This document shows positions 1 to 33,812 of a stretch of 39,792 nt of DNA, piece by piece (within the stretch, counting starts at the first letter, position 1; the number at the start of each line of letters is the position of its first letter). The DNA comes from a virus, in IMG/VR virus record IMGVR_UViG_3300043409_002136, positions 1 through 39,792 of that record; one strand, given 5' to 3'. The translations under genes and the position numbers were made by a program. The notes beneath the pieces are model-generated. The model was not told where the DNA came from. It made no database searches and saw only the letters and a list, made by a program, of their open reading frames with translations.

Positions 1-101
1 CATGTCAAGTTTTATTAAAACATCATTTTGATTTGTTTGGTCTAATTGGGGAAGGGCTTGCTGTCGATATTAACACGCTGTCGGTTCAGAATGACGGCTA
101 A
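1..101 (+). pseudogene. 3' fragment of a second copy of the 36359-36802 gene
   Basis: The first 126 bases match 36702-36827 exactly, so this is the last 33 codons of that gene, with its stop codon TAA inside R''. The fragment is cut by the contig end rather than by an evident mutation. After base 126 the sequence departs from the other copy, entering a different attC centre. It may be a second cassette copy or an assembly branch representing an alternative array order. Confidence 0.7.
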
Positions 102-231
102 CGTCTCGTGGCTTTGTGATGTTGCCTAAAAAATAAGACATAATCTTTAAATTAAAAAACAGAAAATGAAAACACAAACTGAAAATCAAATTGATAACCA
201 AAACGGCAATAAGTCAAAACCACTGTTAGCG
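96..231 (+). repeat. attC site 1
   Basis: R'' GGCTAAC at 96-102 and R' GTTAGCG at 225-231. The left arm GTGGCTTTG..GTTGCC pairs with GGCAATAAG..AACCAC on the right. The centre holds the start codon of the next gene (166). Length 136 bp. Confidence 0.85.
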
Positions 232-492
232 GCAGTTATTCTTCAATTAACTGGGCGTGGTTTTTCAAATAAAAATAGAGATAAAGTAAATGACGATAGG
301 TTAGGTATTAAATTGTCTTTTACGAATGAATTTGGTAAATACGTTGAAATTTATGAAGAAGATACTTATTGGCATATTTTACATTATGGATTTGATGGTA
401 AATATCTACCTATTGGATTTGATATTTTGTTTATTAAAGATATTCGAGAGTACGGAGTTTTTTTAGACGGTATTTTGGCTAATTGCCACTAA
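166..492 (+). CDS. Cassette protein of unknown function with attC-encoded N-terminus
   Basis: A 108-residue protein not recognised as a known family. It starts inside the preceding attC; the first 20 residues (with NGNKSKPLLA at about 14-23) are translated from the attC right arm and R', and the cassette-specific part follows. The crossover G^TTA falls exactly between codons 20 and 21. The stop TAA lies inside its own R'' (CACTAAC), so the mobile unit is open from end to end. The body is rich in acidic and aromatic residues (EIYEEDTYWHILHYGFDGKY), suggesting a small soluble beta-rich protein. A second copy begins at 39669 at the contig end. Confidence 0.65.
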   Translation: MKTQTENQIDNQNGNKSKPLLAAVILQLTGRGFSNKNRDKVNDDRLGIKLSFTNEFGKYVEIYEEDTYWHILHYGFDGKYLPIGFDILFIKDIREYGVFLDGILANCH

Positions 493-620
493 CGTTTTGC
501 CGTTTTGAGATGGTGGGGAAAAATAAATAACCTGCCCTCGGTTATACCGATAGTAGAAAAATACAAACTGATGTTACAGTTTATGACAGAACCCCCACTA
601 TATCAAAACGGCTGTTAGCG
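487..620 (+). repeat. attC site 2
   Basis: R'' CACTAAC at 487-493, R' GTTAGCG at 614-620. The left arm GCCGTTTTGAGATGGTGGGG pairs with CCCCACTATATCAAAACGGC on the right. Length 134 bp. Confidence 0.9.
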
Positions 621-700
621 GTTCGGCTTTTTAAATATTAAATTTTCGGTTACGCTTCCGCACCGTTTTTAAGTCGGAAACAATTTTAAAAATATTTATT
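621..700 (+). promoter_or_regulatory. Conserved cassette 5' segment with TTCCG/CGGAA hairpin
   Basis: The segment from about 648 (ttcggttacgcttccgcacc, then tttttaagtcggaa) to the ATG at 701 recurs almost unchanged at 35620-35672 and 38203-38253, each time between R' and a short hydrophobic plus-strand ORF. It contains a short TTCCG..CGGAA inverted repeat. It could be a leader for the plus-strand peptide or a terminator for the opposing minus-strand gene; the sequence alone does not decide. Confidence 0.45.
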
Positions 701-898
701 ATGAAACTTACTTTAAATAAAGAAAATTTTACTCAAGTAATGTGTTTTCTTCAAATTATTGCTTTTTTACTATTACTTGTTTCTTATATTCATTTATTGA
801 GTCTTTATAACGAGCAATGTCAGATTTCAGAAGATAACTTTCTTCTTTCAAAGCAACTTTTTCAAGATTTAAGAAATAATTCAGTAAACCAAAAGTAA
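701..898 (+). CDS. Small single-pass membrane protein (antisense to 756-956)
   Basis: A 65-residue ORF with one strong hydrophobic segment at about residues 13-35 (VMCFLQIIAFLLLLVSYIHL) and a polar helical tail. It begins directly after the conserved leader shared with two other cassettes that also open with short membrane peptides. It overlaps almost entirely an equally plausible minus-strand membrane protein (756-956), so one of the two may be an antisense shadow. No known family recognised. Confidence 0.4.
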   Translation: MKLTLNKENFTQVMCFLQIIAFLLLLVSYIHLLSLYNEQCQISEDNFLLSKQLFQDLRNNSVNQK

Positions 899-956
899 TG
901 GCTGTAATTAATGACAAAGCAGTTATTAATAATTGCATAGTTTGGAATAGAGACAT
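756..956 (-). CDS. Small membrane protein with coiled-coil tail
   Basis: 66 residues: a hydrophobic segment at about 6-30 (LLITALSLITAITFGLLNYF) followed by a charged, heptad-like helix (ALKEESYLLKSDIARYKDSI). The purine-rich aaagaagaaaaaaag before the ATG is a good Bacteroidota-type start context. It lies 42 bp downstream of 999-1205 on the same strand and is likely co-transcribed with it. It opposes the plus-strand ORF 701-898. The architecture (TM plus coiled coil) resembles many small phage membrane proteins; function unknown. Confidence 0.55.
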   Translation of the reverse strand: MSLFQTMQLLITALSLITAITFGLLNYFLNLEKVALKEESYLLKSDIARYKDSINEYKKQVIVKKQ

Positions 957-998
957 CTTTTTTTCTTCTTTTTCTAGTTTGGAAAAAGTTGTAAAATT

Positions 999-1205
999 TC
1001 ATCCTTTTTCTGTTAATCTAAAACTTTCCTTTGACGTTCGTTCTAAAAGCAAAAAATCTTTTTCTAATGAATATATAACCTTTTCAGCTGAATTATTGTC
1101 AGGTAAAAGATGTAATAAATCCATACCTGGCACAATCTTAATTTTTCCTGATTTTTTAAAGAAATCTATTACTTTTTCCGCAAGTTCTTTTTGTTTTTGA
1201 TTCAT
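999..1205 (-). CDS. Small winged-helix-like protein
   Basis: 68 residues beginning NQKQKELAEKVIDFFKKSG and ending ERTSKESFRLTEKG. The pattern of helices, then a short strand pair with LLLERTSKESFRLTEKG, is typical of winged-helix 'effector-like' domains of phage and Bacteroidota proteins, where the last segment is the wing. This is a shape-based suggestion only. It is the first gene of a minus-strand pair inside a cassette whose attC points the other way, which is uncommon in integron cassettes. Confidence 0.55.
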   Translation of the reverse strand: MNQKQKELAEKVIDFFKKSGKIKIVPGMDLLHLLPDNNSAEKVIYSLEKDFLLLERTSKESFRLTEKG

Positions 1206-1241
1206 TTTTTAGTTTTTTTGAGTGCGGTTCTTCAAGCTGAC

Positions 1242-1373
1242 CGCTAACGTTCTGCGTGTATAAGAAGTGGCGGATTAAGGAAGCCAAGACTTTCAGCAAG
1301 CACAGAACTTAATTAGAATTACAAAACTTTAAATTAACCGAAAACCCGCCATTTTTTATACACGCTGTTAGTG
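1242..1373 (+). repeat. attC site 3
   Basis: R'' CGCTAAC at 1242-1248, R' GTTAGTG at 1367-1373. The arms GCGTGTATAAGAAGTGGCGG and CCGCCATTTTTTATACACGC pair nearly perfectly. Length 132 bp. Confidence 0.92.
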
Positions 1374-1400
1374 GATGGGGTTTTCACAAAAACTGATAAA

Positions 1401-1625
1401 ATGAAAACATATTTAATCACATTTTCAACCAACTTTGAAGAAGCTGGTTTAATTATTACAACCGACAAAGGTATTGAATACGCAAAATCAAGAGCAGAAT
1501 ATTTAGGAGCTTGGGATGGCTATTCAATAGAAGAAATTAACACGACGGAAGAAGGTGTATATTGTTCTGTCAATTTTGGTAACGGATATTTCGGGAAGTT
1601 GAATGACAAGGGCGAGTGTTCATAG
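1401..1625 (+). CDS. Small cassette protein, unknown function
   Basis: 74 residues from the ATG preceded by aactgataaa; a GTG at 1371 inside R' is in frame but less likely. The sequence (MKTYLITFSTNFEEAGLIIT, then IEYAKSRAEYLGAWDGYSIEEI) suggests a compact alpha/beta domain of the kind often annotated only as hypothetical in Bacteroidota phages. It is the only gene of its cassette (1367-1638). No catalytic motif is visible. Confidence 0.65.
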   Translation: MKTYLITFSTNFEEAGLIITTDKGIEYAKSRAEYLGAWDGYSIEEINTTEEGVYCSVNFGNGYFGKLNDKGECS

Positions 1626-1631
1626 CCTTGC

Positions 1632-1762
1632 CACTAACGTATGGTGCTATACGAAGGAGGCGATTATTAGCACTAAAATTGATGCGGAGTACAAATGTTT
1701 GTTTAATCACAAATGTTTCTGCGGAGTACCGAACCGCCTCTTTTGTATAGCACGTGTTGTAT
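1632..1762 (+). repeat. attC site 4
   Basis: R'' CACTAAC at 1632-1638, R' GTTGTAT at 1756-1762. Arms GTGCTATACGAAGGAGGCG and CGCCTCTTTTGTATAGCAC pair. The next cassette's R'' ATACAAC is the exact complement of this R'. Confidence 0.92.
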
Positions 1763-1823
1763 GCTGGTGCGGTTTTGAAGCACTAATTTTAAATCAATAA
1801 CTAAAGCAATAATTAAATAAAAT

Positions 1824-2108
1824 ATGAAAAACTTTTTAGAATCAATAGATAATATTAAAGAAAATAAAGGTGCTATTTTTGAAAACAAAACTTACGAAGA
1901 ATTACAAAATGAAACGTTGGAAGTTAAAAAACTCACTCCAATAGAGCGAATAGGATATATAATTGATATGTATGAAAAAGAACGAGAAAGATTAATGCTT
2001 ATTCTTAAACCACACTATCAAAAACAAGAGTATGCAAAATCTAAGGAATACCAAGATAGATTAAACCATATTAGTGAATTTATAGCACAATTAAAAATAA
2101 TAAAATGA
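1824..2108 (+). CDS. Helical cassette protein, unknown
   Basis: 94 residues, strongly charged and predicted helical (ERIGYIIDMYEKERERLML, EYQDRLNHISEFIAQLKIIK). First of four closely packed genes in one cassette (1756-2686); its stop overlaps the start of the next gene by the ATGA-type arrangement, so translation is probably coupled. No family recognised. The four-gene operon layout inside a single cassette is larger than usual. Confidence 0.65.
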   Translation: MKNFLESIDNIKENKGAIFENKTYEELQNETLEVKKLTPIERIGYIIDMYEKERERLMLILKPHYQKQEYAKSKEYQDRLNHISEFIAQLKIIK

Positions 2109-2323
2109 AAACAGCAGTAGAGTATTTAGAAGAACGATTGAATTTATCTTTGGGTAATGAGTTAAAATCGTTACGAGGGCTTTTTGTCATTGCCAAAGAA
2201 ATGGAAAAATCCCAAATTGAGGAAGCAATAGAGAATGGTTATGCTGGGTGTTGTGGTAAAAAAACAACAGTAAAGTTGAAAGGTAATTTTTGGGAAAGAG
2301 AAGAAAATTGGAGTAAAAAATGA
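2105..2323 (+). CDS. Small phage-type accessory protein
   Basis: 72 residues starting MKTAVEYLEERLN and containing FVIAKEMEKSQIEEAIENGY. This pattern (a short N-terminal helix followed by 'AKEMEKSQI..A...G') is familiar from uncharacterised small proteins of Bacteroidota phages. It overlaps both neighbours by ATGA junctions. Function unknown; the similarity supports a phage accessory origin of the cassette. Confidence 0.65.
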   Translation: MKTAVEYLEERLNLSLGNELKSLRGLFVIAKEMEKSQIEEAIENGYAGCCGKKTTVKLKGNFWEREENWSKK

Positions 2324-2439
2324 AAAATTTCATAAACAAGGCGAATGAACTTAAAATTAGTTATTCAATGCTTTACAAAATGATTTTATCAAAAGAAATT
2401 AATTTTATAATAGTTTGTGGTAGATATTATTTTGATTAA
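2320..2439 (+). CDS. HTH-like micro-protein
   Basis: 39 residues (beginning MKNFINKANELKISYSMLYK) with the layout of an excisionase or HTH_17-type DNA-binding helix-turn-helix: helix, turn with SYSML, recognition helix, then a short 'IIVCGRYYFD' wing. Starts in the ATGA overlap with 2105-2323 and is followed 6 bp later by 2446-2661. It is short, so the DNA-binding call is tentative. Confidence 0.5.
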   Translation: MKNFINKANELKISYSMLYKMILSKEINFIIVCGRYYFD

Positions 2440-2445
2440 AAAGAT

Positions 2446-2661
2446 ATGGAGAATATTTTAAATTTAAAACTACCTTATTTAGGTATTAAAATAAATAAGG
2501 TAACAGATATTCCAAGAGTAGAATATTGTAACTTTCATTTTTGTGGCAGTTGGCTTACAATAAGTGGCAAAACTGAATTAATTGATATTAGTTGGCAAAA
2601 TTCAAAAACTGGAGAATTAATATCAAATGAAGTTTTTATTAATAGATTTTTTCAGTTATAG
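2446..2661 (+). CDS. Small cassette protein, unknown
   Basis: 71 residues, fourth gene of the four-gene cassette. It has aromatic and cysteine residues (YCNFHFCGSWLTISGKTELI) but no spaced metal-binding motif that I would defend. It ends 18 bp before R''. Probably translated from the same transcript as 1824-2439. Confidence 0.55.
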   Translation: MENILNLKLPYLGIKINKVTDIPRVEYCNFHFCGSWLTISGKTELIDISWQNSKTGELISNEVFINRFFQL

Positions 2662-2679
2662 CACTTTCGTAGCACTTGC

Positions 2680-2773
2680 ATACAACGTTATCGGGCTTGG
2701 CGAAGTGCCGCTACTCGAAACTTAAATTTTAGCACTAATTGTCCTGCGGCATTTTGCCAAACCCGTGTTATGG
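2680..2773 (+). repeat. attC site 5
   Basis: R'' ATACAAC at 2680-2686, R' GTTATGG at 2767-2773. Arms GGGCTTGGCGAAGTGCCGC and GCGGCATTTTGCCAAACCC pair. Shorter class, 94 bp. Confidence 0.92.
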
Positions 2774-2822
2774 GATAGTTTTAAAAACCTTTTAGGGTGG
2801 GCATTTAAACGATAAATTAAAA

Positions 2823-3239
2823 ATGAAAGCAACAGTAAAAATTGAAAAAGAAGTTGAATTGAAAACTTTAGTAGTAAAAGCAGGTGTACGCTATTACGAA
2901 GATGCAACCGTTAATGGTGTTGAAGATACGGAAGGCGATTTAATACCTTGTAAGCAGGGCGAATTATGGTGTCCGATTATTGATATTGATAGCGGTGTAA
3001 TTACCAATTGGAAACAAGGTGTAAAAGCCGAAGTACATTATAAAGTTTGCGATGCAGGTAGTTACTACTTACAAGATGCAGAAGGCAATACCGTTTTGTC
3101 AATTGAACAGGACTATGTGCCTAAAATGATGTGTCCAAAAGAAAGCGGTTACGGAGATTATATCATTATGGATATTGATGAAAACGGTAAAATCGCAAAC
3201 TTTAGACAAACACTTGACGGATTTGTTGATGAGGATTAA
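2823..3239 (+). CDS. Cassette protein, unknown (138 aa)
   Basis: 138 residues, acidic and beta-rich (YYEDATVNGVEDTEGDLIP, DSGVITNWKQGVKAEVHYK). Ends IANFRQTLDGFVDED. It resembles hypothetical proteins common in Bacteroidota genomes and phages but I cannot name the family. Its GC content appears higher than that of neighbouring genes, consistent with an independent origin. Single gene of cassette 2767-3277. Confidence 0.7.
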   Translation: MKATVKIEKEVELKTLVVKAGVRYYEDATVNGVEDTEGDLIPCKQGELWCPIIDIDSGVITNWKQGVKAEVHYKVCDAGSYYLQDAEGNTVLSIEQDYVPKMMCPKESGYGDYIIMDIDENGKIANFRQTLDGFVDED

Positions 3240-3270
3240 CGGTGCGGTGGGAAAAGGTTTTTAAAATTTC

Positions 3271-3346
3271 CCATAACGTTAAAACTACACGCTGGTTGCC
3301 TATTTATTCCAATGCTTCGGCAACTAGCTTGTAGTGATTGTTATAT
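3271..3346 (+). repeat. attC site 6 (short class)
   Basis: R'' CCATAAC at 3271-3277 (complement of GTTATGG that opens the cassette), R' GTTATAT at 3340-3346. Arms ACTACACGCTGGTTGCC and GGCAACTAGCTTGTAGT pair. 76 bp. Confidence 0.9.
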
Positions 3347-3390
3347 TCTCGGCTTTTTTTCACACAATTATTAATCAATAAAATACAAAT

Positions 3391-3624
3391 ATGACACTAA
3401 AAGAAAAATTTGAAGAAGTAGAAATTATGTTTGAAAACCAAACAGGTAAATTAAAATACGATGAATTATGCGAAGCACCAAATGAATGTGTAAAAATAGC
3501 CAAAGACTATGTTAATGAACAAATTGAAAAAATATGCGATTCAGACAACCTTTCTAAAATTATCTATTCAAAATCATTTGCGGAAGCAAGGAGAATAATT
3601 AGAACTTTATTACAGCAAGAGTAG
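3391..3624 (+). CDS. Helical cassette protein, unknown
   Basis: 77 residues, acidic and helical, beginning MTLKEKFEEVEIMFENQTGK and ending RIIRTLLQQE. It resembles small helical accessory proteins of Bacteroidota phages in size and composition. It is the last gene of the array; its cassette ends at the orphan R'' (3654-3660). Confidence 0.6.
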   Translation: MTLKEKFEEVEIMFENQTGKLKYDELCEAPNECVKIAKDYVNEQIEKICDSDNLSKIIYSKSFAEARRIIRTLLQQE

Positions 3625-3653
3625 CTTTGGTTACAAAGTTGCTCGAAGCTGGA

Positions 3654-3660
3654 ATATAAC
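3654..3660 (+). repeat. Orphan R'' at the array's distal end
   Basis: ATATAAC at 3654-3660, preceded by GGA, is complementary to the cassette's own 5' end (GTTATATTC at 3340). No arms or R' follow; the sequence passes into phage backbone. The last attC therefore appears truncated. Confidence 0.6.
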
Positions 3661-9387: not shown

Positions 9388-9977
9388 TTGCTTATATTTC
9401 TTGTTTTAAATCCATAGCCTTTTGCCTTTGTAGTTCCGCATTCATCGGAATTACAACCGCAAGTATCCTCCGAGCATTTATAGTAATCAAAAATATCTTT
9501 ATTTGCGCATAGGTATTTTAAAGTTCTTTCAAAAGATATTTTCCCCATATTTCTATATTTGTCAGAAAATAACTCTAGTTCTTTTAGAGTTTTTGGAATT
9601 GAAAATTCATTTGTCTTTGTTACAATACCGTTTGCAGTATCATTAAATCCGTTAATTACAATGTATCTTGAATAAGAATAGTAAGCCATTATTTTATAAA
9701 TGCCCTCGAATCGTCGTTGTTTATTTGAACAATCTACATAATAACCTCCATTTAAAAGCAAGTTTTTCTCATTATAATATTCAGGTTTTTGATTGTCAGG
9801 ATTTGATATATAGTCTTGAACCTCTTTTATTATATTTTCAATTTCAATCCAAACATCACAAAAAAGCTCCGCTAAATCAAAATTTAAAGCCTCTGTTTCT
9901 GCAATACATAGCTTTGACAAATCACAATGCTTTGCCAATATGCCAATACAATTATAATGGTGTGGTAATAGTTTCAT
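9384..9977 (-). CDS. Probable head-tail connector protein
   Basis: 197 residues, helical. The central FEGIYKIMAYYSYSRYIVING and 'TKTNEFSIPKTLKELELFSDKYRNMGKISFE' patterns match connector-like proteins of Bacteroidota phages that sit directly after the portal. Cysteine-rich C-terminus (CSEDTCGCNSDECG). Overlaps the portal gene end by 26 bp and the next gene start by ATGA. Confidence 0.65.
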   Translation of the reverse strand: MKLLPHHYNCIGILAKHCDLSKLCIAETEALNFDLAELFCDVWIEIENIIKEVQDYISNPDNQKPEYYNEKNLLLNGGYYVDCSNKQRRFEGIYKIMAYYSYSRYIVINGFNDTANGIVTKTNEFSIPKTLKELELFSDKYRNMGKISFERTLKYLCANKDIFDYYKCSEDTCGCNSDECGTTKAKGYGFKTRNISK

Positions 9978-11184
9978 TTGTTGTTATTTGTTCAGGGTTT
10001 CCGAGCAAAGCATCGGCGATATTGTCGACGTTAATAATTGGAATTATTTTGCATTCAAATCCTAAATAAGTCAAAGTATTTTCTAATTCCGTGCGTTCAT
10101 CAAGTGTTTGCTCAGTATAGAATTTCTTCATTTCTACATAAGTATCCGCACTTGTGCCAAATAGCGTGTTATCAGACTTAATTAACTGCTCAGGAATGTT
10201 ATTTGCGGCTGCGTAAATGTTTGATTTTACTGTATTCTTTGTTTCTGTAAAAATCTTTTCGTCAATCTCAGCTTTTATTTGTCCAACTTTAAAAACTTTT
10301 TCAATGTCATCAGTAGCACCAATTGAAAGGTGATAAGTTCCGCCTACGTTTTCAGAGCCTAGCCATAGCTTAATATCCTCCTGTACTTGTTCTTCCTCTT
10401 CTGTGTCCAATCCAGCCGTAACTACATAAGTTTTTCCTAAAAAACCTGTCCTTACTTGCCTATTAGTGTACATTGATATTCTGCTTTCTGTGTCTAAATC
10501 ATTATAAACTGCATCGAAAGGAGAAAGTGCATATTTAAACTCAGGTGTCATATTAAGATAATACACCTGTCCTCTATAATAAGGTAACATTACAGACAAG
10601 TCTACATTAATATCTTTTGCACCACTTAAAATGTAATCGTTTTTTATTTGCTCTAAAATTACATTTTTTTTATTAGAAAATGGATAATAGAAAGTGCAAT
10701 CGTTTTTATCTTTTCCAAATGAAAAAGATTTTGTTTTTGAGTAGTCTTTAAACCAGTATTTTGTGATATTATCATTATCGTCCTCTTTGCCTATTCTAGT
10801 TTTGGTATATTCTAAAACATCCAAAACGGGGACTAATTGTAATTTGTCGTCTAGTTTTTGACCTATATGAAAGAAAACACCGTTTTGTCTTGCAATATCA
10901 TTAGATGCTAACTTTACTATTTTAGAAATATTGTAATTTTTTTCGTAATTAACAACAAAGTCATTTACTACGCCTTTTCCTGAAATAAATTTAGCCATCA
11001 TTTTAGAGGCATTTTTTCCTGATGGCGAATTTAAAATAGCTAATTCAATTTCGTTTGGATAAAGATTGTTTTCACCATTATAAAAAACAGAATCATCTTT
11101 ATCTCCCTCTTGTTTTATTATGCGAGAATAAAGCTCTATAAACTTAGCTCTTGCTTTTACTAAAACATTTTTTGAATCTGACAT
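9952..11184 (-). CDS. Portal protein
   Basis: 410 residues, within the normal portal range. Contains ENNLYPNEIELAILNSPSGK near the N-terminus, a Gly/Tyr-rich wing region, and the characteristic C-terminal part 'SNIYAAANNIPEQLI..NTLFGTSADTYVEMKKFYTEQTLDERTELE', as in portals that end with a long stem helix. The portal forms the dodecameric DNA channel at one capsid vertex. It is placed downstream of the capsid gene rather than directly after the terminase. Confidence 0.82.
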   Translation of the reverse strand: MSDSKNVLVKARAKFIELYSRIIKQEGDKDDSVFYNGENNLYPNEIELAILNSPSGKNASKMMAKFISGKGVVNDFVVNYEKNYNISKIVKLASNDIARQNGVFFHIGQKLDDKLQLVPVLDVLEYTKTRIGKEDDNDNITKYWFKDYSKTKSFSFGKDKNDCTFYYPFSNKKNVILEQIKNDYILSGAKDINVDLSVMLPYYRGQVYYLNMTPEFKYALSPFDAVYNDLDTESRISMYTNRQVRTGFLGKTYVVTAGLDTEEEEQVQEDIKLWLGSENVGGTYHLSIGATDDIEKVFKVGQIKAEIDEKIFTETKNTVKSNIYAAANNIPEQLIKSDNTLFGTSADTYVEMKKFYTEQTLDERTELENTLTYLGFECKIIPIINVDNIADALLGNPEQITTNETITTPL

Positions 11185-13383: not shown

Positions 13384-14454
13384 TTATTTTGTTTTAAATT
13401 TATTAAAGTTCGAAACTGCCAATGATGCGTTTGTTTGTTTTTCAATATTTGACTTTGGCGATTCTTTTTCTTGTTTTGGAATAGCCTTAGAACTAGCTTT
13501 GAAGTTTGATATTAAAACATCTTTTGATTTATTTTGCAAATCCAACTCAACTGCTTTGTTTGTAATTGCTTCTAATTGCTGAGTTAATGCTAATATTTCA
13601 GCCTTTGCATCATCTATTGTCATTTCCTCCTCTGATGGTATTATTTCAGTAAGTTCACCGCCGACAAAAACGTATGTTTCTCCACTTAACATTATGAAGC
13701 TACCCTCGGCATCATTTCCGTCAAAGGTCGCTTTTACTCCTAATTCAATAACTCCCGAATCTTCGAGTTCGAAAAAATCCAATTCTTTTCCGTCTGCCGT
13801 TTCTACAACTTTATTAGAAAATCCTTTTAAAAATTGCATTGCTTTATTTAGCAATGTTTGAGTTTTTTTATTCATTATTACTTCTTTTTTGTTAATATTA
13901 AATCTTTTTAACGCCACAGGTCTTAACACTTCTTCTATTGACGTAGCAAATCGCATTTTTACGGCTTCTTCAGCACTTATTGAAGTTTCATTTTGCATTA
14001 ACGCTAAAGATTCTTCTTTTGTTAAATCTGTATGTAAAGCGTAATGTTCGGCTATGTTTTTGTTCCAATTATCTAATTCGTTAGCAACTCTAAGTAGTTT
14101 TTTAGAATCCCCTTCAGAATAAGTCCAAGCGTTATGAACGAAGGGCTCAGTATGACCAGTTAAAATTCGTTCATCACCAGCAAGAAATATAACTGTTGCA
14201 ATAGACGCTACCTGCCCTTCTCCTAAAATTTTTATTTTAGCGTTGTTGTCTTTTGCATACCTCCTTAATTCGTTGTATATTGAAAACCCTGTTTCTACAT
14301 CCCCTCCGAAAGATCGCAACCTAACAAATATGTCTTTGCCCTCAGCTTTTGATAATTGATTTTGAACGCTAGAAAGGTTTACATAACCACCTTGTTCAAT
14401 AATCCAGTCCTCTTCAAAAGGCACAATCTCGCCATATATCTTAATTTCGTGCAT
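13384..14454 (-). CDS. Prohead protease (ClpP/S14 type) fused to scaffold
   Basis: 356 residues. Residues 1-170 follow the ClpP-like phage protease fold: RLRSFGGDVETGFSIYNEL (the 'SPGGDV..G..IYN.L' motif), GEGQVASIATVIFLAG with probable nucleophile Ser84, and VHNAW with His107. Residues about 190-356 form a different region with an acidic coiled segment (EEMTIDDAKAEILALTQQLE) typical of scaffolding domains. It should assemble and then cleave itself inside the prohead. Upstream of it lies the inserted lipoprotein/sRNA region. Confidence 0.88.
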   Translation of the reverse strand: MHEIKIYGEIVPFEEDWIIEQGGYVNLSSVQNQLSKAEGKDIFVRLRSFGGDVETGFSIYNELRRYAKDNNAKIKILGEGQVASIATVIFLAGDERILTGHTEPFVHNAWTYSEGDSKKLLRVANELDNWNKNIAEHYALHTDLTKEESLALMQNETSISAEEAVKMRFATSIEEVLRPVALKRFNINKKEVIMNKKTQTLLNKAMQFLKGFSNKVVETADGKELDFFELEDSGVIELGVKATFDGNDAEGSFIMLSGETYVFVGGELTEIIPSEEEMTIDDAKAEILALTQQLEAITNKAVELDLQNKSKDVLISNFKASSKAIPKQEKESPKSNIEKQTNASLAVSNFNKFKTK

Positions 14455-14520
14455 TCTTTTGATTTTTTTATAAAATTATACTATGTTATGTTAAAAAAAA
14501 TATTTTTTTTTGCTAAAATG

Positions 14521-14551
14521 TTTGCAAATAAAAAAAATAGGTTTAGATTTG
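14521..14551 (+). promoter_or_regulatory. Bacteroidota-type promoter
   Basis: TTTG at 14521-14524, 19 bases, then TAGATTTG at 14544-14551, matching the TTTG/TAnnTTTG consensus. It points right, against the surrounding operon, toward the small-RNA candidate and lipoprotein gene. Confidence 0.75.
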
Positions 14552-14557
14552 TATTGA

Positions 14558-14623
14558 ATTATCGTATAAAGTAATACGAAACTTTACAAAACTAAGAGAC
14601 CTGCAAAAAAACAGGTCTCTTTT
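14558..14623 (+). ncRNA. Candidate small RNA ending in an intrinsic terminator
   Basis: About seven bases after the promoter a region of roughly 65 nt begins that lacks an ORF. It holds two hairpins: TCGTAT/ATACGA (14562-14579) and AGAGACCTG/CAGGTCTCT (14595-14620) with an eight-base A-rich loop and T-run. The second is a good rho-independent terminator. The arrangement fits a discrete short RNA, or an attenuator leader for the lipoprotein gene that starts at 14638. Confidence 0.5.
14595..14623 (+). terminator. Intrinsic terminator/attenuator before the lipoprotein gene
   Basis: Nine-base perfect stem AGAGACCTG/CAGGTCTCT followed by TTT. It lies between the promoter at 14521 and the ATG at 14638, so read-through would be needed to express the gene from that promoter. 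On the minus strand the hairpin is followed by TTAG, a weaker terminator. Confidence 0.75.
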
Positions 14624-14637
14624 AATTTAAATTAATT

Positions 14638-14862
14638 ATGAAAAAAATTTTATTTATTGCATCGTTTGTATTATTTGGATGTTCAGAAGATGAGCCGATT
14701 GTTGACACTTGTAAAACAGTTACAGATAAAAAAATAATTTATGAGTCAATAGGCGTAAACTTATACGCTCCTGTTTATTATTTTTTTTTAGATGGCACGA
14801 AAAAAGAAGTCACTAAAGACACTTATGCTAATTATTTAATAAAAGATAAATACTGTAAGTAA
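14638..14862 (+). CDS. Small lipoprotein (possible phage moron)
   Basis: 74 residues with a type II signal: MKKILFIASFVLFGC, lipobox LFGC with Cys15 as the acylated residue, then SEDEPIVDTC. The mature part of about 60 residues has two further cysteines (at about 25 and 73) that could form a disulphide. It is the only backbone gene on the plus strand between the array borders. Lone phage lipoproteins with their own promoter often alter the lysogen or infected-cell surface, for example blocking superinfection; that role here is inference. It ends 3 bp before the convergent gene 14866-15096. Confidence 0.8.
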   Translation: MKKILFIASFVLFGCSEDEPIVDTCKTVTDKKIIYESIGVNLYAPVYYFFLDGTKKEVTKDTYANYLIKDKYCK

Positions 14863-14865
14863 AAA

Positions 14866-15096
14866 CTATAATTTATTTTCCATAGCCGAGACCGCTCTCC
14901 TGACAGTAGCGACTGAACACTTAAATTTTTTAGCTACAATTAAATATTTTTTCATTTGATACGGTTCGCTTAAAATTGATTTGTAATACATATATATATC
15001 ATAATCTGTCATTGTAGACAGGGGCATTCTTCCTATCTTTACAAGTGTTTTTATTACCTGCATATTCATTTCAATATAATCAACTACTCTATCCAT
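14866..15096 (-). CDS. Small HTH-like protein
   Basis: 76 residues ending YLIVAKKFKCSVATVRRAVS, the form of a helix-turn-helix (hydrophobic helix, Cys-Ser turn, 'ATVRRAV' recognition helix). It overlaps the upstream gene by 13 bp. A transcription-regulator or packaging role in the structural operon is possible. Family not identified. Confidence 0.6.
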   Translation of the reverse strand: MDRVVDYIEMNMQVIKTLVKIGRMPLSTMTDYDIYMYYKSILSEPYQMKKYLIVAKKFKCSVATVRRAVSAMENKL

Positions 15097-21924: not shown

Positions 21925-22458
21925 TTACTTAATTTTACTTAATTTTTTTTCGATTTGACTCTTTGTAATATCAAAATATTGTTTGTCAAAAATTACATTA
22001 TAAGCAATGTTTTTAATTAAATCATATTTTAAAATATCCCCCTTTGCTAAATTGTCGATCATATTTAAGTATCCAAATTTATTTAAGTTGTTAATTCCTG
22101 ATTGAATCATTTTAATATCAGGGTCACTTGTTAAATATTTACTTTCTAATTCGTTAATTATTTTTATTTCATCAATTATCCAAAGAATAAAAGATATAGC
22201 TTTATCTATTGCAATATTTTGAATATCTGAAATAAAATAGTTGTGTCCCCTGTCTTTTAAAATTAAAAAAAATAAAGTTTCAAAATCGTTCTTTAAAAAT
22301 AGCTCGGGTAAAGTTTCTTTTACAAATCCCCATTTGCAATAAATAAGACTTTCAAAGTCAAAATTAAGTAAAATACTTGAGCGTTTACCATTTTTGACTA
22401 AAAAATTAAAATCATCTTGAGAAATTAGTTGTAATTGTTTATTAATTGATATATCCAC
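21925..22458 (-). CDS. Structural-region protein, unknown
   Basis: 177 residues, mostly helical (FETLFFLILKDRGHNYFISD; FILWIIDEIKIINELESKYL). Overlaps the end of the terminase gene by 17 bp, so is translated with it. Probably head-tail joining or assembly protein by position; the sequence does not name it. Confidence 0.55.
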   Translation of the reverse strand: MDISINKQLQLISQDDFNFLVKNGKRSSILLNFDFESLIYCKWGFVKETLPELFLKNDFETLFFLILKDRGHNYFISDIQNIAIDKAISFILWIIDEIKIINELESKYLTSDPDIKMIQSGINNLNKFGYLNMIDNLAKGDILKYDLIKNIAYNVIFDKQYFDITKSQIEKKLSKIK

Positions 22459-23653
22459 CGCCTGTGCGTTTTAATTTAGGTTTTCCTACTAAATCCCAAA
22501 AAACATACCCTATGGGGTCAAGATGATGGTTATAATCATCTATTGGGGTTTGACTTTTTTTGTCGTGCCAAACATAATTATTCAATTCTTTTATAATATT
22601 TATGCTTGAAGGATCAACTATTATTTCCCAATCTTGCATCAATGCTATACGATCAATTATTTTTGGCTTCTCAATTCCTTTGATAATTAAACCCCTTGAT
22701 TTCAATTCTGAAATTAGTCGAGGCTCAGCACTATCGGCAACAATTAAACTTTTCCCTGCGTAAATTTTATTATAGTCAAATATCTGGGAGGTTGTTAAAC
22801 CTGACTGGTGTAAAAATTCTTTTACAAAAATACGCTTATTTTTAGAATCAATTGAAACTTTATCTAAAGTCGTGGGGTCAATGCTGAATCCGTAATCCTG
22901 ACCAAAAACAGAAACTGAATGCTCTTCAAAATCTGCAATTCGCCAATTAGTAAAAACAACTCCTTCGGCTTTGTTCAGCCATCCCCCTAGTATTTGATGT
23001 TTATATTTTTCAGGGTTTTTGATTTGCATTTTCTCAACCTCATTGATAAATGATTGGTCAATATTTTCTATATTGTCAAGGTAAGTTGTATGAATGTAGG
23101 TGACATCATCTTTAGTGCCGTTAAATCCCTCTTGAACGCCTTTGTCTTCAAAGAACTTTTTATAAATCCAATGCTCTTTTGTTGTTGGGTTAAGTATTAG
23201 AATAATACGGTTTTGTTTGCCTTTTTGCCTTATTGAAAGATTTATTTTGTCGAAAGTAGTTTCATCTGTAAGCTCCTCGGCTTCGTCTAAAACCCACGTT
23301 GTAACCCCCTGCAATGATTTTAAATTTGCAGTTTGATCTCCTGAAGATGTTTTAATTCCTTTGAATATAATTTCGCTTCCTGAATCAATATTTAAAATAT
23401 CTGATTTGTTTATTTGAAATGAAGTATTGATATTTAACAAATCAATTTTTTGCTTAAACTCTGGAATGATTGAAAGATGGGCACTTGTCATTGTTTGCCT
23501 TGTGAATAAAATTTTATGCCCACTTTCAAAAGATAAAAGGCTGGTAAATCTACCAACCTCAAATGATTTTCCACTGCCTCTGCCACCTGTTAAAATAAAA
23601 TATCTAGTATTATTACCTAGATTATTCCAAACTTTGCTGTGTTTCTTTATCAT
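22442..23653 (-). CDS. terL: Terminase large subunit
   Basis: 403 residues. N-terminal ATPase: Walker A GGRGSGKS at 23-30, Walker B TWVLDEAEELT at about 113-123, and a coupling segment ILILNPT. C-terminal RNase H-like nuclease: FGQDYGFSIDPTTL, IVADSAEP, and the terminal 'DDYNHHLDPIGYVFWDL' carrying the last catalytic Asp. Drives DNA into the prohead and cuts the concatemer. Length is at the short end of the PBSX/Terminase_3 group. Its start overlaps the small-subunit gene by 32 bp. Confidence 0.93.
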   Translation of the reverse strand: MIKKHSKVWNNLGNNTRYFILTGGRGSGKSFEVGRFTSLLSFESGHKILFTRQTMTSAHLSIIPEFKQKIDLLNINTSFQINKSDILNIDSGSEIIFKGIKTSSGDQTANLKSLQGVTTWVLDEAEELTDETTFDKINLSIRQKGKQNRIILILNPTTKEHWIYKKFFEDKGVQEGFNGTKDDVTYIHTTYLDNIENIDQSFINEVEKMQIKNPEKYKHQILGGWLNKAEGVVFTNWRIADFEEHSVSVFGQDYGFSIDPTTLDKVSIDSKNKRIFVKEFLHQSGLTTSQIFDYNKIYAGKSLIVADSAEPRLISELKSRGLIIKGIEKPKIIDRIALMQDWEIIVDPSSINIIKELNNYVWHDKKSQTPIDDYNHHLDPIGYVFWDLVGKPKLKRTGGGYIN

Positions 23654-26435: not shown

Positions 26436-26934
26436 TGTTTTTGAAGTTTTGTATTGATAGATTAATGCTCGATTCTAAGTTATAAATTACAGACTCATTA
26501 CTCCAATTGTTGCAAACTTTTACGAACTCCATAGGGTCAAGTTGTGGCAATTTATATAAGTATCTTTCGTGAATTTCTTCTAATTCCTTAAATGTTTTAG
26601 TTTTTAAAAATGGGTCAAGAATTTTCTTTTGTGCAAAGTAATTTTTTAACTCCATTGTTCGAATAGATAAATATAATTTTTCGATGCAAATAGGTTCTTT
26701 TAGTACCTTGTTTAATTCTTTGTTTGCAAAATCTAAATCGCTGTAATAAGTTAGCAACTCGGACAATGTAAATGCGTATAACTTAGCAAATAAAAGATTA
26801 TCTTGAATGATGTCTTTTTGATGTAATGCAAAGTACTTGCCTATTTCATTAAATGCTTCTATGTCTGTCTTATTAGGCTTATTTTGCTTTGTAAGAGTAA
26901 ATCTCAAACGATCAAAAGATTCTTTTAATTTCAT
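26428..26934 (-). CDS. Early protein, unknown (168 aa)
   Basis: 168 residues, helical, no catalytic motif. Contains FALHQKDIIQDNLLFAKLYA and 'LYLSIRTMELKNYFAQKKILDPF'. It overlaps the HTH gene (ATGA at its start) and the helicase gene by 8 bp. A helicase-loader-like role would suit its position before the helicase, but the sequence does not show it. Confidence 0.6.
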   Translation of the reverse strand: MKLKESFDRLRFTLTKQNKPNKTDIEAFNEIGKYFALHQKDIIQDNLLFAKLYAFTLSELLTYYSDLDFANKELNKVLKEPICIEKLYLSIRTMELKNYFAQKKILDPFLKTKTFKELEEIHERYLYKLPQLDPMEFVKVCNNWSNESVIYNLESSINLSIQNFKNNV

Positions 26935-27089
26935 AACAATATCGATTTTAAACGTTGCTCTGTCGAATAAGGCATTTCTCTTTTAGAATTTAAGTACATT
27001 GATAAAGTTGGCTGGCTGATTCCTAATTGTTCAGCTATCCAGCTTATTTTCAATCCCTTTTGTTTAATTAGTGATTTGTATTTTTTCAT
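26931..27089 (-). CDS. Small HTH DNA-binding protein
   Basis: 52 residues: MKKYKSLIKQKGLKISWIAE then QLGISQPTLSMYLNSKREMP, the classic XRE-type helix-turn-helix (IAEQLGISQPTLSMYL). Too short for a dimerisation domain. It follows the terminator at 27119, so may begin a separate transcript, and its stop overlaps the next start (ATGA). Probable regulator of the replication genes. Confidence 0.8.
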   Translation of the reverse strand: MKKYKSLIKQKGLKISWIAEQLGISQPTLSMYLNSKREMPYSTEQRLKSILL

Positions 27090-28428: not shown

Positions 28429-28449
28429 AATTATTAAATTTAAAAACCC

Positions 28450-28525
28450 CATCTAATTACGGCTTGGTCAGAAGTCGGTCAGATGAGGTTTAATTATTTT
28501 TTTGTTAGATACTCTGACCAGTATC
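28450..28525. promoter_or_regulatory. Operator-like repeats TGGTCAGA
   Basis: Direct copies TGGTCAGA (28465-28472) and CGGTCAGA (28476-28483) face an inverted copy TCTGACCA (28513-28520). An additional imperfect stem AACCCCATCT/AGATGAGGTT (28446-28490) encloses them. The segment is the gap between the 82-residue gene and the ATPase gene; it may be an operator or an attenuating leader. Confidence 0.45.
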
Positions 28526-30410: not shown

Positions 30411-30575
30411 ATGGGAAGGCATCCAGTATCAAAAGAAAAAAAGAAAATATTAATAGGAGCTAGTGTTGAAAAGCAAATTGTGGACGAGCTTGGTATTTTA
30501 ATATGTAAGCAAATTGCAGAAAACGCGGTAAATAAACAATTTTTAAAGAATTGTAAAAATAAGGTAAAAGTTTAA
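30411..30575 (+). CDS. RHH-like small regulator next to the array
   Basis: 54 residues. KKKILIGASVEKQIVDELGI then ICKQIAENAVNKQFLKN resembles a ribbon-helix-helix core (beta strand KKILIGASV, two helices). Short N-terminal basic tail. It lies between the divergent promoter region with tandem repeats and the array's half-site, so may repress both. A similar protein is encoded at the other array border (3692-3874). DNA binding is inferred from the pattern. Confidence 0.55.
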   Translation: MGRHPVSKEKKKILIGASVEKQIVDELGILICKQIAENAVNKQFLKNCKNKVKV

Positions 30576-30616
30576 TATTTAAAAACTAGAATAGAGTAAT
30601 AAATAGTTTGATCTAT

Positions 30617-30985
30617 ATGAATAAACTTTCAAAAAATACCAAATTGCCCCAATGCGACAAAACCGCTGTTAGCAAATCGTTCTTGCTTTCGGGTAAATGT
30701 CAGCAGGATTTTTACGATTATTGCGTAGAAAATAAAGATAGAATGTTTGGAAGATTATTAGGAGATGAAGAAGATGTTTTAGATGAATTGAGTTATTTAT
30801 TTTCAATTTCTGTTTATCCCTTAATGATTCAGTTTTTAGACACAAAACAATATAAAGGCGAACCTTTATATTCAATGTGTTTCAGTTATTTTTATAAATT
30901 CAAAATTCAAAGTCAAAGTCAATTTGATATTTGGATTCAATCAATTGAAAAAGCAAATGAACTTTATAACGATAACGCTTTTTAG
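30617..30985 (+). CDS. First cassette protein, unknown
   Basis: 122 residues from ATG 30617 (a TTG three codons upstream is also in frame). The first 18 residues are encoded by the half-site, so the start codon lies outside the mobile part. The body is helical and acidic (QQDFYDYCVENKDRMFGRLL; EDVLDELSYLFSISVYPLM). No family recognised. As the first cassette it could be transcribed from the promoter at 30377. Confidence 0.6.
   Translation: MNKLSKNTKLPQCDKTAVSKSFLLSGKCQQDFYDYCVENKDRMFGRLLGDEEDVLDELSYLFSISVYPLMIQFLDTKQYKGEPLYSMCFSYFYKFKIQSQSQFDIWIQSIEKANELYNDNAF
30644..30674 (+). repeat. attC right half-site (array entry, attI-like position)
   Basis: TTGCCCCAATGCGACAAAAC, CGCT and R' GTTAGCA (30668-30674) match the right arm of other sites (for example 34145-34175) but no left arm or R'' is found in the 70 bp upstream. 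It is either a truncated attC or the array's primary insertion site. Confidence 0.65.
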
Positions 30986-30991
30986 AATGTT

Positions 30992-31127
30992 TGCTAACGT
31001 TTCGTGGCTTTGTCTTGTTGCCTAAAAAATAAGACATAATCTTTAAATTAAAAAACAGAAAATGAAAACACAAAATGAAAATCAAATTGATGACCAAAAC
31101 GGCAATAAATCAAAACCAATGTTAGTG
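30992..31127 (+). repeat. attC site 7
   Basis: R'' TGCTAAC at 30992-30998, R' GTTAGTG at 31121-31127. Arms GTGGCTTTGTCTTGTTGCC and GGCAATAAATCAAAACCAA pair. Start codon of the next gene lies in the centre (31062). 136 bp. Confidence 0.9.
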
Positions 31128-31436
31128 GCAGGTTTTTTGACTTCCAATAAAATTTATAGAAAATATATGTTTATGTATGGAATATTGTCGGTTTTATACG
31201 TTCTTGAATATTTCGAGTTTGAAGAAAATTACGAGGAATGCCAAAAGATTATTGATGCTATAAAAGAGCAAGAAAAAGCACTTAATACTACTTTATTTTC
31301 AACGATAACAACCGAAACTATAAAAGAAGTAGTTGAGAGTTATAAAAAATTCAATCTTACTGGTAAAAATGCAATTGAGAATAGTAAATATTATTCAACT
31401 TTAATTCTGAAAGAGATTGAATGCACTTTCGTTTAA
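31062..31436 (+). CDS. Cassette protein with attC-encoded N-terminus, unknown
   Basis: 124 residues. Residues 1-20 (with NGNKSKPML) come from the attC and resemble the leaders at 166 and 33307; the crossover falls between codons 20 and 21. The body begins LVAGFLTSNKIYRKYMFMYG and is helical (EECQKIIDAIKEQEKALNTT). No known family. The cassette's own 5' part has no start codon near the boundary, so the leader is probably the real start. Confidence 0.6.
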   Translation: MKTQNENQIDDQNGNKSKPMLVAGFLTSNKIYRKYMFMYGILSVLYVLEYFEFEENYEECQKIIDAIKEQEKALNTTLFSTITTETIKEVVESYKKFNLTGKNAIENSKYYSTLILKEIECTFV

Positions 31437-31442
31437 ACTTGC

Positions 31443-31558
31443 TTGTAACGTCCTAGTGATTGGCGAAGAAGCGGATAAATAAGCCTAAATTTTAAAGACA
31501 CAAAACAAATTATTGAATTAATAAACTAACCCGCTTTTTTGCCAAACACTTGTTATAG
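31443..31558 (+). repeat. attC site 8
   Basis: R'' TTGTAAC at 31443-31449, R' GTTATAG at 31552-31558. Arms GTGATTGGCGAAGAAGCGG and CCGCTTTTTTGCCAAACAC pair. 116 bp. Confidence 0.88.
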
Positions 31559-31589
31559 GCAGGATGGGTTTTTAAAACGAAAAATTATT

Positions 31590-31949
31590 ATGGGATTAGA
31601 CACTTCACACAATTGTTGGCACGGACGTTATTCATTTTTTAACAGATTTAGATATTCTTTAGGTCATCAAATAGGAATTGATTTAGATGATTATTATGGA
31701 TATGGTAAAACAGGAGTAAAAGATTTAACAAAAATTGAACACGAATTAATGCCTTTATTTAATCATTCAGATTGCGATGGAATATTAACAGTTGAAGAAT
31801 CAAAAAAAATTGTAATCGGTTTGAATAAGGTTTTACAAAACTTTAATGATAAAATAGAATATCATTATGATTTTAAAGAAAATATAATTCAATTTCGAGA
31901 TGGTTGTTTAGATGCTATTGAACGAAATGAGGAAGTAGATTTTCATTAA
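31590..31949 (+). CDS. Cassette protein, unknown (119 aa)
   Basis: 119 residues from the ATG after aaaattatt; a longer reading from 31539 begins in the attC and is less likely. Starts MGLDTSHNCWHGRYSFFNRF and contains 'HELMPLFNHSDCDGILTVEESKKI', a pattern like small proteins in Bacteroidota phages that carry an H-S-D-C-D-G segment. Function unknown. It shares its cassette (31552-32353) with two very small genes that have their own promoter. Confidence 0.65.
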   Translation: MGLDTSHNCWHGRYSFFNRFRYSLGHQIGIDLDDYYGYGKTGVKDLTKIEHELMPLFNHSDCDGILTVEESKKIVIGLNKVLQNFNDKIEYHYDFKENIIQFRDGCLDAIERNEEVDFH

Positions 31950-32045
31950 TAACGTAAATTTAGCCGTATTTGTTTGATTATCAATGAAAAGTAAAATAAT
32001 TTAAAAATAAATCACTTTTTATTTTAATATATCATATATATAGTA

Positions 32046-32053
32046 TATCTTTA
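32046..32053 (+). promoter_or_regulatory. Internal cassette promoter
   Basis: TATCTTTA followed by CC, close to TAnnTTTG and nearly identical to the element at 37409 (TATCTTTAC). It precedes the 32087 gene by 34 bp. The -33 element is not clear. Confidence 0.5.
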
Positions 32054-32086
32054 CCTCATGATTAATAACAAATAAAACATACGATT

Positions 32087-32200
32087 ATGAAAACTTTAAC
32101 AATTGAACAAAAAGAGCAAGAATTAAGAAATATTAATTTTTTCGTTGGTGGTTTAACTGATGAAGCAATTGAATACTATTATAACAAGTTAATTGCATAA
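32087..32200 (+). CDS. 37-residue micro-protein
   Basis: MKTLTIEQKEQELRNINFFV then GGLTDEAIEYYYNKLIA. Overlaps the next start by TAATG, so the two are probably translated together. Preceded by its own promoter. No family recognised. Confidence 0.5.
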   Translation: MKTLTIEQKEQELRNINFFVGGLTDEAIEYYYNKLIA

Positions 32201-32340
32201 TGAAAAAAATAATAGATATACCAAACGAAATACTTCAAGAACTAAAAATACTTGCAGTAAAATCTAACAAAGACCTTAAAAACTTTATTCAAGACGAACT
32301 TAAAAAAATTGTCGAAAACTCTCAATCGAAGCAGTCTTAA
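32200..32340 (+). CDS. RHH-like micro-protein
   Basis: 46 residues: MKKIIDIPNEILQELKILAV, SNKDLKNFIQDELKKIVEN. This fits the RHH fold (strand 'KKIIDIP', helix, 'NKDLKNFI' turn-helix) of antitoxin-type regulators. Forms a two-gene unit with 32087-32200, an arrangement common for toxin-antitoxin or autoregulated pairs in cassettes; no toxin motif is visible in the partner. Confidence 0.6.
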   Translation: MKKIIDIPNEILQELKILAVKSNKDLKNFIQDELKKIVENSQSKQS

Positions 32341-32346
32341 TATGGC

Positions 32347-32469
32347 TTATAACGTTGGGTGCTTGGCGAAGTGGCTGAACCGAATGTTGAATATAATTAC
32401 TAAACTTAATAATTAAAACGAATGTCAATAGTAGTACAAAACGGCAATATTGCCAATACCGTGTTATCG
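32347..32469 (+). repeat. attC site 9
   Basis: R'' TTATAAC at 32347-32353, R' GTTATCG at 32463-32469. Arms GGTGCTTGGCGAAGTGGC and GCAATATTGCCAATACC pair. Start codon of the cREC gene is inside (32422). 123 bp. Confidence 0.85.
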
Positions 32470-32871
32470 GATGTTTTTCTTTTTCTCGATGATATTCGTG
32501 AACCTGAACACGCCTTTGAATACACAAAACAAGAAATGTTCCTAAAACAAAAATGGCAAGTTGTAAGGAATTTTGATGAGTTCAAAAGTCATATTGAAAC
32601 AAACGGAATGCCTATTTTTATTTCGTTTGACCACGACTTAGCCGATACTCACTACACGCCCGAACACTTATGGACTGATTATGATAAATCAAAAGAATGG
32701 CAAGATAAACAAGTCCATAAAGAAAAGACTGGTTATGAATGTGCAATGTGGTTAGTAGATTTTTGCATAGACAATAATTTGCAATTACCTAAATACTATT
32801 GTCATTCAATGAACCCTGTCGGTAAAGATAAAATTGTCAGTTTATTACGGTCTTTCCAAAATAGCCACTAA
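32422..32871 (+). CDS. Cyclic-phosphate-processing receiver-like (cREC) domain protein
   Basis: 149 residues. After an attC-encoded leader of 14 residues the domain reads VFLFLDDIREP, WQVVRNFDEFKSHIETNGMP, IFISFDHDLADTHY, TGYECAMWLVDFCIDNNLQLP and HSMNPVGKDKI. These are the conserved blocks of the cREC domain, a receiver-like fold proposed to process cyclic nucleotide or cyclic phosphate ligands, with paired aspartates in LDD and DHD. Complete. The stop lies in its own degenerate R''. A signalling or anti-defence role in a phage cassette is inference. Confidence 0.8.
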   Translation: MSIVVQNGNIANTVLSDVFLFLDDIREPEHAFEYTKQEMFLKQKWQVVRNFDEFKSHIETNGMPIFISFDHDLADTHYTPEHLWTDYDKSKEWQDKQVHKEKTGYECAMWLVDFCIDNNLQLPKYYCHSMNPVGKDKIVSLLRSFQNSH

Positions 32872-32998
32872 AGTTTCGCAGCTTTGAGATGGTGGGGAAA
32901 AATAAAACCTAGTCTTTCGGTTGAACACGAAATTGAAAGATACAAAAAAAACATTGAATTAAACCTAATCTAGCAATAGCGTGTAATTGCTGTTATAA
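32866..32998 (+). repeat. attC site 10, degenerate and mosaic
   Basis: R'' position reads CACTAAA (32866-32872) instead of AAC, R' GTTATAA at 32992-32998. The left arm GCTTTGAGATGGTGGGG is the type of site 2, but the right arm (GCAATAGCGTGTAATTGCTG) is that of another type, so they do not pair. Probably inactive. Confidence 0.65.
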
Positions 32999-33022
32999 GC
33001 TGTGTTTTCAGCACTAAATATT

Positions 33023-33235
33023 ATGAAAATTCAAGTAAAATTAGATTACAACGACAAAATTTATTTATCAAATACAACAGAATGCAATCAAAATGATGTT
33101 TCAGAAGCTAAAAATTTAATGGAACAAATTGCTCAAGGTAAAATAACATATTTATCAATTCAAAGTGGTTTTGAAGAATATTACTTTACAAAAGAAGTTT
33201 TAGAAAAATCAATTATAACGGTTATCGTAACATAG
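33023..33235 (+). CDS. Small cassette protein, unknown
   Basis: 70 residues from ATG 33023. MKIQVKLDYNDKIYLSNTTE, then helix SEAKNLMEQIAQGKI, then YLSIQSGFEEYYFTKEVLEK and SIITVIVT. The ending resembles small beta-alpha-beta proteins of Bacteroidota phages with 'F.S......YYF.kevl..SIi.v.v'. Function unknown. Confidence 0.6.
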   Translation: MKIQVKLDYNDKIYLSNTTECNQNDVSEAKNLMEQIAQGKITYLSIQSGFEEYYFTKEVLEKSIITVIVT

Positions 33236-33236
33236 A

Positions 33237-33372
33237 CACTAACGGTTCCCTGTCTTTGTCTTGTTGCCGATAAAATAAGACCTAATCTTTAAATTTAAAA
33301 CAGAAAATGAAAAGTACAAAACAATCATCAAATAAAGCCGAAAACGGGAATAAATCAAAACCACTGTTAGCC
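33237..33372 (+). repeat. attC site 11
   Basis: R'' CACTAAC at 33237-33243, R' GTTAGCC at 33366-33372. Left arm CTGTCTTTGTCTTGTTGCC faces GGGAATAAATCAAAACCAC. Start codon of the next gene inside (33307). 136 bp. Confidence 0.88.
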
Positions 33373-33621: not shown

Positions 33622-33692
33622 CGTTTCGCCGCTTTGTACTGCCACCTATGCGGTTTAGTGGATTCGGCGGTAGTTCAAGACTGCTGTTAGTA
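33616..33692 (+). repeat. attC site 12 (short class)
   Basis: R'' CGCTAAC at 33616-33622, R' GTTAGTA at 33686-33692. Arms GCCGCTTTGTACTGCCACC and GGCGGTAGTTCAAGACTGC pair. 77 bp. Confidence 0.88.
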
Positions 33693-33693
33693 G

Positions 33694-33807: not shown

Positions 33808-33812
33808 ATAAA

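Follow-up and report, generated by a model that had tools for sequence, protein, structure and literature searches.

The plus-strand unit that breaks into the late gene block of a Flavobacterium-type (Flavobacteriia-type) phage is best explained, with a probability of roughly 0.6, as a horizontally exchanged cargo gene, probably for a surface-exposed lipoprotein, which occupies a slot of variable content at the boundary of an operon and would be controlled by its own promoter and a cis-acting transcription attenuator. Comparison with related phages establishes the slot, its changing contents and a leader RNA selected for its structure, in which a first hairpin (P1), an A-rich linker, a terminator and a start codon follow each other in fixed order, usually behind a promoter motif.

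The window, i.e. the whole stretch of DNA analysed, is the viral record IMGVR_UViG_3300043409_002136 with 39,792 bases. Its late block, comprising the genes for the large terminase, tail, head protease, capsid and portal, lies on the minus strand and is interrupted by the plus-strand unit at 14521-14862. This span was given correctly in the initial annotation, which had also described the insert as the only plus-strand unit of the backbone; by eye, its gene is indeed the sole listed plus-strand ORF between approximately 4068 and 30235 that is not antisense to a longer minus-strand gene. The features referred to below are the following:

9952-11184, minus strand: portal gene of the late block
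13384-14454, minus strand: Clp-type head maturation protease gene, one border of the slot
14455-14865, no strand assigned: variable slot between the HTH-like 76-aa gene and the head protease gene, compared across related phages
14521-14551, plus strand: Bacteroidetes-type promoter TTTG-N19-TAGATTTG (motif match; positional enrichment in relatives)
14562-14579, plus strand: P1, the first hairpin of the leader of the window (here called type A), with 6 bp and the loop AAAGTA (folding; covariation)
14580-14593, plus strand: A-rich linker (sequence)
14594-14623, plus strand: terminator hairpin of 10 bp (14594-14621) with a short U-tract (terminator call; folding; covariation)
14638-14862, plus strand: gene of a 74-aa lipoprotein, lipobox LFGC followed by SEDEP (ORF translation; homologues in the slots of L024 and L028)
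14866-15096, minus strand: conserved 76-aa gene, HTH-like, the other border of the slot (weak HTH match under the Pfam cut-off)
22442-23653, minus strand: large terminase gene of the late block

The insert and its leader RNA

The promoter proposed previously was found at 14521-14551, with TTTG at 14521-14524, a spacer of 19 nt and TAGATTTG at 14544-14551. Given that the exact pattern TTTG-N19-TAnnTTTG matches once in the window and 0.69 matches are expected by chance, the motif on its own proves little. Its position in relatives supports the call as a putative promoter: in 14 of the 20 type A copies, a strict TAnnTTTG (-7 box) occurs in the 95 nt that precede the leader, compared to 9.8% of random positions. 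Some copies (L043, L046) show no visible promoter of their own and are preceded by a same-strand gene. Transcription may enter leaders from upstream in relatives; the upstream gene in the window lies on the opposite strand.

The two hairpins announced between promoter and gene are present (14562-14579 and 14594-14621), and the leader folds with an energy z-score of -6.5, a stability reached by none of 200 shuffles. The claim of a strong terminator was correct in part, as the U-tract is short and weak in the window (TTTTAATTT) in comparison to TTTTTT in most relatives. In addition, P1 of the window reads AUA, whereas AUG is found in 18 of the 20 type A copies. Both features suggest that the window copy may be leaky or decayed. 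We consider it very improbable that the leader works by translation of a tiny ORF in P1 (AUG AAG, then often a stop). AUG AAG is indeed present in those 18 copies and, by eye, is directly followed by a stop codon in seven of them, but the window and L031 copies carry AUA instead, the frame is lost through the linker, and the letters are also fixed by the stem.

In the window copy, 6 nt of the linker (ACTTTA) could pair with TAAAGT at the P1 loop, compared to at most 4 nt in the other 19 copies, and a pseudoknot of P1 loop and linker was therefore rejected as a family trait. P1 loop and terminator loop of the window can pair over at most 2 exact nt, and no loop-loop pairing over more than 4 exact nt was found in the 20 type A copies. 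Neither the window nor any of 12 related loci matched an Rfam family at its gathering score. Weak matches to the leader (best E 0.019, an enterobacterial sRNA) were far under their gathering scores and were dismissed, as was PreQ1-I (RF00522), which was suggested by the small hairpin and an ACTAA tail and scored 17 bits against a gathering score of 39.

A terminator-like site was called at the leader hairpin on both strands, and this bears on the possibility that the hairpin chiefly terminates the convergent minus-strand unit (gene 14866-15096) and that the leader has no regulatory role. The stops of the lipoprotein gene (14862) and the 76-aa gene (14866) are separated by 3 bases and no other terminator was called there, as such a function would suggest. 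However, AGTTTTG, which follows the hairpin on the minus strand, makes a poor U-tract, the leader is co-directional with its neighbours in L039, L042, L043 and L050, and P1 is conserved yet useless to such a terminator, which makes this explanation hardly probable.

The product of the ORF at 14638-14862 includes MKKILFIASFVLFGC-SEDEP and contains the lipobox LFGC that had been reported. Homologues were detected in L024 and L028 alone, with 35 and 38% identity, respectively, and a pairwise E of 2e-6 for L024; both genes occupy the same slot behind a promoter motif and lack a terminator leader. Neither 50,697 phage records nor viral contigs scanned with the single sequence yielded a relative, and a search with the three-row alignment recovered the L028 contig again and nothing further. 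The protein has no Pfam match near the cut-off and no PHROG match. AlphaFold predicts a small beta-sheet domain (mean pLDDT 76) without a significant fold match (best E 1.3 in the PDB and 0.022 among viral structures). According to a description of surface-exported lipoproteins, the export signals of this phylum are polar or basic, then acidic, such as SDDFE for F. johnsoniae and, for C. canimorsus, C-X-K-(D/E)2-X (PMC5080379). The lipobox cysteine is followed by SEDEP in the window and by SKDDD in L024 and L028, and the window lipoprotein thus shows the polar-then-acidic order of a putative, Flavobacteriia-like surface-export signal (LES type). These signals resemble the described ones, and it is plausible that the lipoprotein is located on the cell surface, where it could act on receptors as proposed in the initial annotation; that it blocks other phages or superinfection is a guess.

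Conservation of type A leaders and the case for attenuation

The first pattern scan of viral contigs yielded 15 contigs, every one with a full type A leader, and the family model was built from 16 type A copies. Of 33 records searched with this model, 17 showed a single strong copy each (E of at most 1.4e-10), and most of these are the sources of the training copies; five further records gave weak matches alone. A second pattern scan returned 27 contigs, 16 of them new. Three of these (L130, L133, L139) represent full leaders outside the training set with scores of 65-70 bits, two (L127, L128) carry P1 and a different terminator before an apparent portal gene, which probably follows a variant leader there, and 11 were discarded as coding or unrelated DNA. 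The first type A pattern had no match in 84,980 bacterial and archaeal genomes. Isolated phages searched with a hand-made consensus leader gave partial terminator-like matches alone (best E 0.004), which we took as chance.

In the 20-row alignment, fitted to the family model, the P1 helix is 99.2% paired, with both sides changed in two of six pairs, and the terminator helix is 99.4% paired, with both sides changed in six of nine pairs. None of 500 shuffles reached any of five covariation measures, and pairing fell to 33-64% when the partner was slid by one to three columns. An independent MAFFT alignment of 16 copies agrees with these values (99.0% for P1 and 95.8% for the terminator). The initial annotation had named hairpin conservation as a check and a lack of compensatory changes as its refutation; such changes are present in both stems across related phages. 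Judged by this comparison, the type A leaders form a family of structured phage RNAs that has no match in Rfam.

The start codon lies 8-15 nt past the U-tract in 18 of the 20 type A copies and at 29 nt in L048; none was found there in L031. Genes following type A leaders encode another lipoprotein (L020), a methylase-like protein (L039, by eye) and small proteins of no known kind. Between the two options offered previously, a stand-alone small RNA and attenuation of lipoprotein expression, attenuation fits better and a separate sRNA worse, because the ATG at 8-15 nt leaves no room for a separate promoter and because the leader precedes mostly unrelated genes. It is unlikely that the main product is a trans-acting phage small RNA of 65-70 nt, with leak-through alone for the downstream gene. 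The RNA would be short, stable and terminated, its P1 loop is conserved and a single strong copy occurs in each of the 17 records, all of which would suit this explanation, but the near-fixed short spacing in the 18 copies links the leader to the gene behind it. On comparative evidence the small RNA exists, and it most likely serves as a leader that acts in cis.

If the insert is controlled by attenuation, transcription would start at its own promoter, many transcripts would end at the terminator and give an RNA of 65-70 nt, and the lipoprotein gene would be expressed from read-through. Type A leaders showed no alternative fold that could serve as an antiterminator, so that read-through would have to depend on a phage or host antitermination factor bound to P1, on RNA polymerase changed during infection, or on plain, constant leakiness. 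No phage gene convincingly co-occurs with the type A leader in 17 records, several of which are partial. The best candidate, a 259-aa ORF of G010, is present in five of nine records with the leader and in none of eight without it, and is absent from the window.

The variable slot and type B leaders

Related phage contigs were gathered by portal and capsid-region searches. The slot set consists of 20 phages: the whole interval was read in 19 distinct phages and the protease side alone in L014, and the count leaves out L009, which is near-identical to L010, and the distant L034 and L038. Genes on the opposite strand occupy the slot in 12 of the 20 phages, and nine of these 12 inserts have a hairpin-linker-terminator leader between promoter and gene, which is of type A in five (window, L008, L010, L020, L030) and of type B in four (L014, L021, L029, L031). 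The remaining three opposite-strand genes (L024, L028, L032) have none, so that a slot gene does not need a leader. Small same-strand ORFs were found in four phages (L004, L011, L015, L019), and the slot is empty in four others (L006, L013, L022, L027). Lipoproteins recur in the slot (window, L020, L024, L028, plus the distant L034). The genes after slot leaders are mostly unrelated to one another, indicating that leader and gene are separate modules. In L020, a tRNA-Met(CAT) gene (L020:3698-3770, minus strand) is located between promoter and type A leader.

Type B leaders, recognised when reading the slots, have a first hairpin whose loop is exactly complementary to that of the terminator. 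We scanned 834,585 bases of related phage contigs for two such hairpins that share 6 or more exact loop-loop pairs and have a promoter motif at most 30 nt upstream and an ATG ORF at most 52 nt downstream. This gave 21 full units, compared with none in four nulls (three Markov models and the reversed sequence). Before the promoter and ORF filters there were 44 matches versus 11, 16, 8 and 14 in the nulls, which means that a sizeable share of the unfiltered matches is due to chance. The 23 matches that fail the promoter or start-codon filter stand outside the count of 21, and some may be real, e.g. the leader of a helicase gene in L089 with a promoter motif farther away. The 21 units contain 17 different loop sequences; AGTCGG is found in four units and GTGCAG in two. 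Four isolated Flavobacteriia phages were covered, and a full type B unit is present once in FL-1 (near position 18935) and absent from TCUEAP1, phi46:1 and 6H; no type B unit with promoter and ORF was detected in Bacillus phi105, or in Lactococcus phiQ1 and Cellulophaga phiST, both covered in part. One type B leader was assigned in the window:

28444-28525, minus strand: type B leader before the Sak4-like ATPase gene, which starts at 28428 (loop complementarity; terminator call)

Its P1 spans 28525-28508, and the P1 loop TGGTCAGA is the complement of TCTGACCA (28472-28465), which lies within the terminator loop (terminator hairpin at 28491-28444). Similar helicase genes in L112, L089, L083 and L101 each have a type B leader of their own; the loop CCACTAC is common to two of these four leaders, on different stems. 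Orthologous helicase genes thus retain a leader though its sequence differs. Another idea is that the leader is a recombination landmark, a stretch of shared homology for cargo swapping with a secondary role for the RNA fold. In several phage lineages, mostly unrelated genes follow the same leader, as would be expected of a landmark, but compensating stem changes preserve pairing, and type B loops vary between most units while their complementarity is kept, which shared homology would not yield. We therefore regard this explanation as distinctly improbable and keep to attenuation, which type B leaders would achieve by loop-loop pairing of P1 and terminator.

As judged from their sequences, the terminator leaders of related phages suggest a family of phage RNA switches. 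It is a rather improbable extension that Flavobacteriia phages use attenuators genome-wide on cargo and core replication genes, with the loop codes of type B providing trans feedback circuits on the own gene and type A as a code-less branch read by a factor. The short RNA released from a type B leader could then regulate chiefly its own gene in trans, so that one phage would have several independent circuits.

Several further observations were made in these genomes. Type B leaders directly precede NUMOD4/HNH homing endonuclease genes in two phages (L045:990-1570 and L051:994-1598, plus strand), and these genes run against the strand of the adjoining head-tail genes. A sub-family of type B has an extra small linker hairpin (e.g. 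TTAGTC...GACTAA) and a terminator loop of 8-11 nt; its members are:

L083:4794, minus strand: type B sub-family leader
L089:12361, minus strand: type B sub-family leader
L112:6795, minus strand: type B sub-family leader
L091:7019, minus strand: type B sub-family leader
L102:8287, plus strand: type B sub-family leader

Two consecutive terminator-like hairpins precede a small HTH gene (26931-27089) at 27192-27121 on the minus strand of the window, the nearer one 31 nt before its ATG; the pair may be another leader or just the end of the upstream unit. At positions 1-3660 and approximately 30570-39792, the window contains an integron-like cassette array of small ORFs separated by attC-like elements of the form TAACG...GTTA with imperfectly palindromic ends. 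Eight such elements were counted in the window, 12 in G005, five in G010, three in G023, one each in G017 and G025 and three in Flavobacterium phage 6H; the other 14 of 21 records scanned and shuffled sequence had none. Clusters of attC in phages have already been described (PMC9892861). Near-exact end repeats were seen by eye (1-126 equals 36703-36828, and 39669-39792 equals 167-290), which may be copies of one cassette or an assembly effect.

More widely, phages of the Flavobacteriia type have terminator leaders of two families in front of exchangeable as well as core genes. Terminators that separate many unrelated phage genes from their promoters point to a layer of control which is invisible to gene annotation and travels with exchangeable genes. 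If the leader works as an attenuator, it would help to explain how newly acquired phage genes are silenced until the time is right. Leaders with matching loops are compact RNA parts with natural variation, their pairing rule is directly testable, and the isolated phage FL-1 has one.

Comparison with known systems

No description of type A or type B leaders was found in the literature searched, whose coverage was incomplete and included few subscription journals. T5 Llp is a superinfection-exclusion lipoprotein of a phage. The window lipoprotein is likewise small and phage-encoded but, unlike exclusion lipoproteins, has no sequence match beyond its slot relatives and no significant fold match. 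A type III toxin-antitoxin system (ToxIN-like) was discarded, the leader having no repeats by eye and the gene no Pfam match near the cut-off or PHROG match. In the nut/boxB site of lambda, a small promoter-proximal hairpin with a GAAG-type loop stands before a terminator. The type A leader shares such a hairpin before its terminator but differs in having no box A; no N-like protein was identified and no phage gene co-occurs with it.

In the guanidine-IV riboswitch, a pseudoknot connects two hairpins, of which the 3' one is terminator-like, and the ligand raises expression (PMC9788692). Type B units have the same layout as this riboswitch and its Gd4v variant, with a loop-loop pseudoknot and a 3' terminator upstream of a gene, whereas the type A leader of the window does not. 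Unlike guanidine-IV, type B loops are mostly leader-specific and the genes behind them are phage genes of many kinds; as for the ligand site, there is no Rfam match at gathering score, in a release that may not include the family. From this comparison, the resemblance is one of layout, not of membership.

Phage morons carry their own promoter, are foreign to the surrounding operon and are present or absent among relatives. In contrast to a moron, the insert in the window has its terminator before the gene and none after it. Its putative promoter motif and its opposite strand are as in a moron, and so is its distribution: it is present in some relatives and absent in others, with four of the 20 slots empty and other genes in slots elsewhere.
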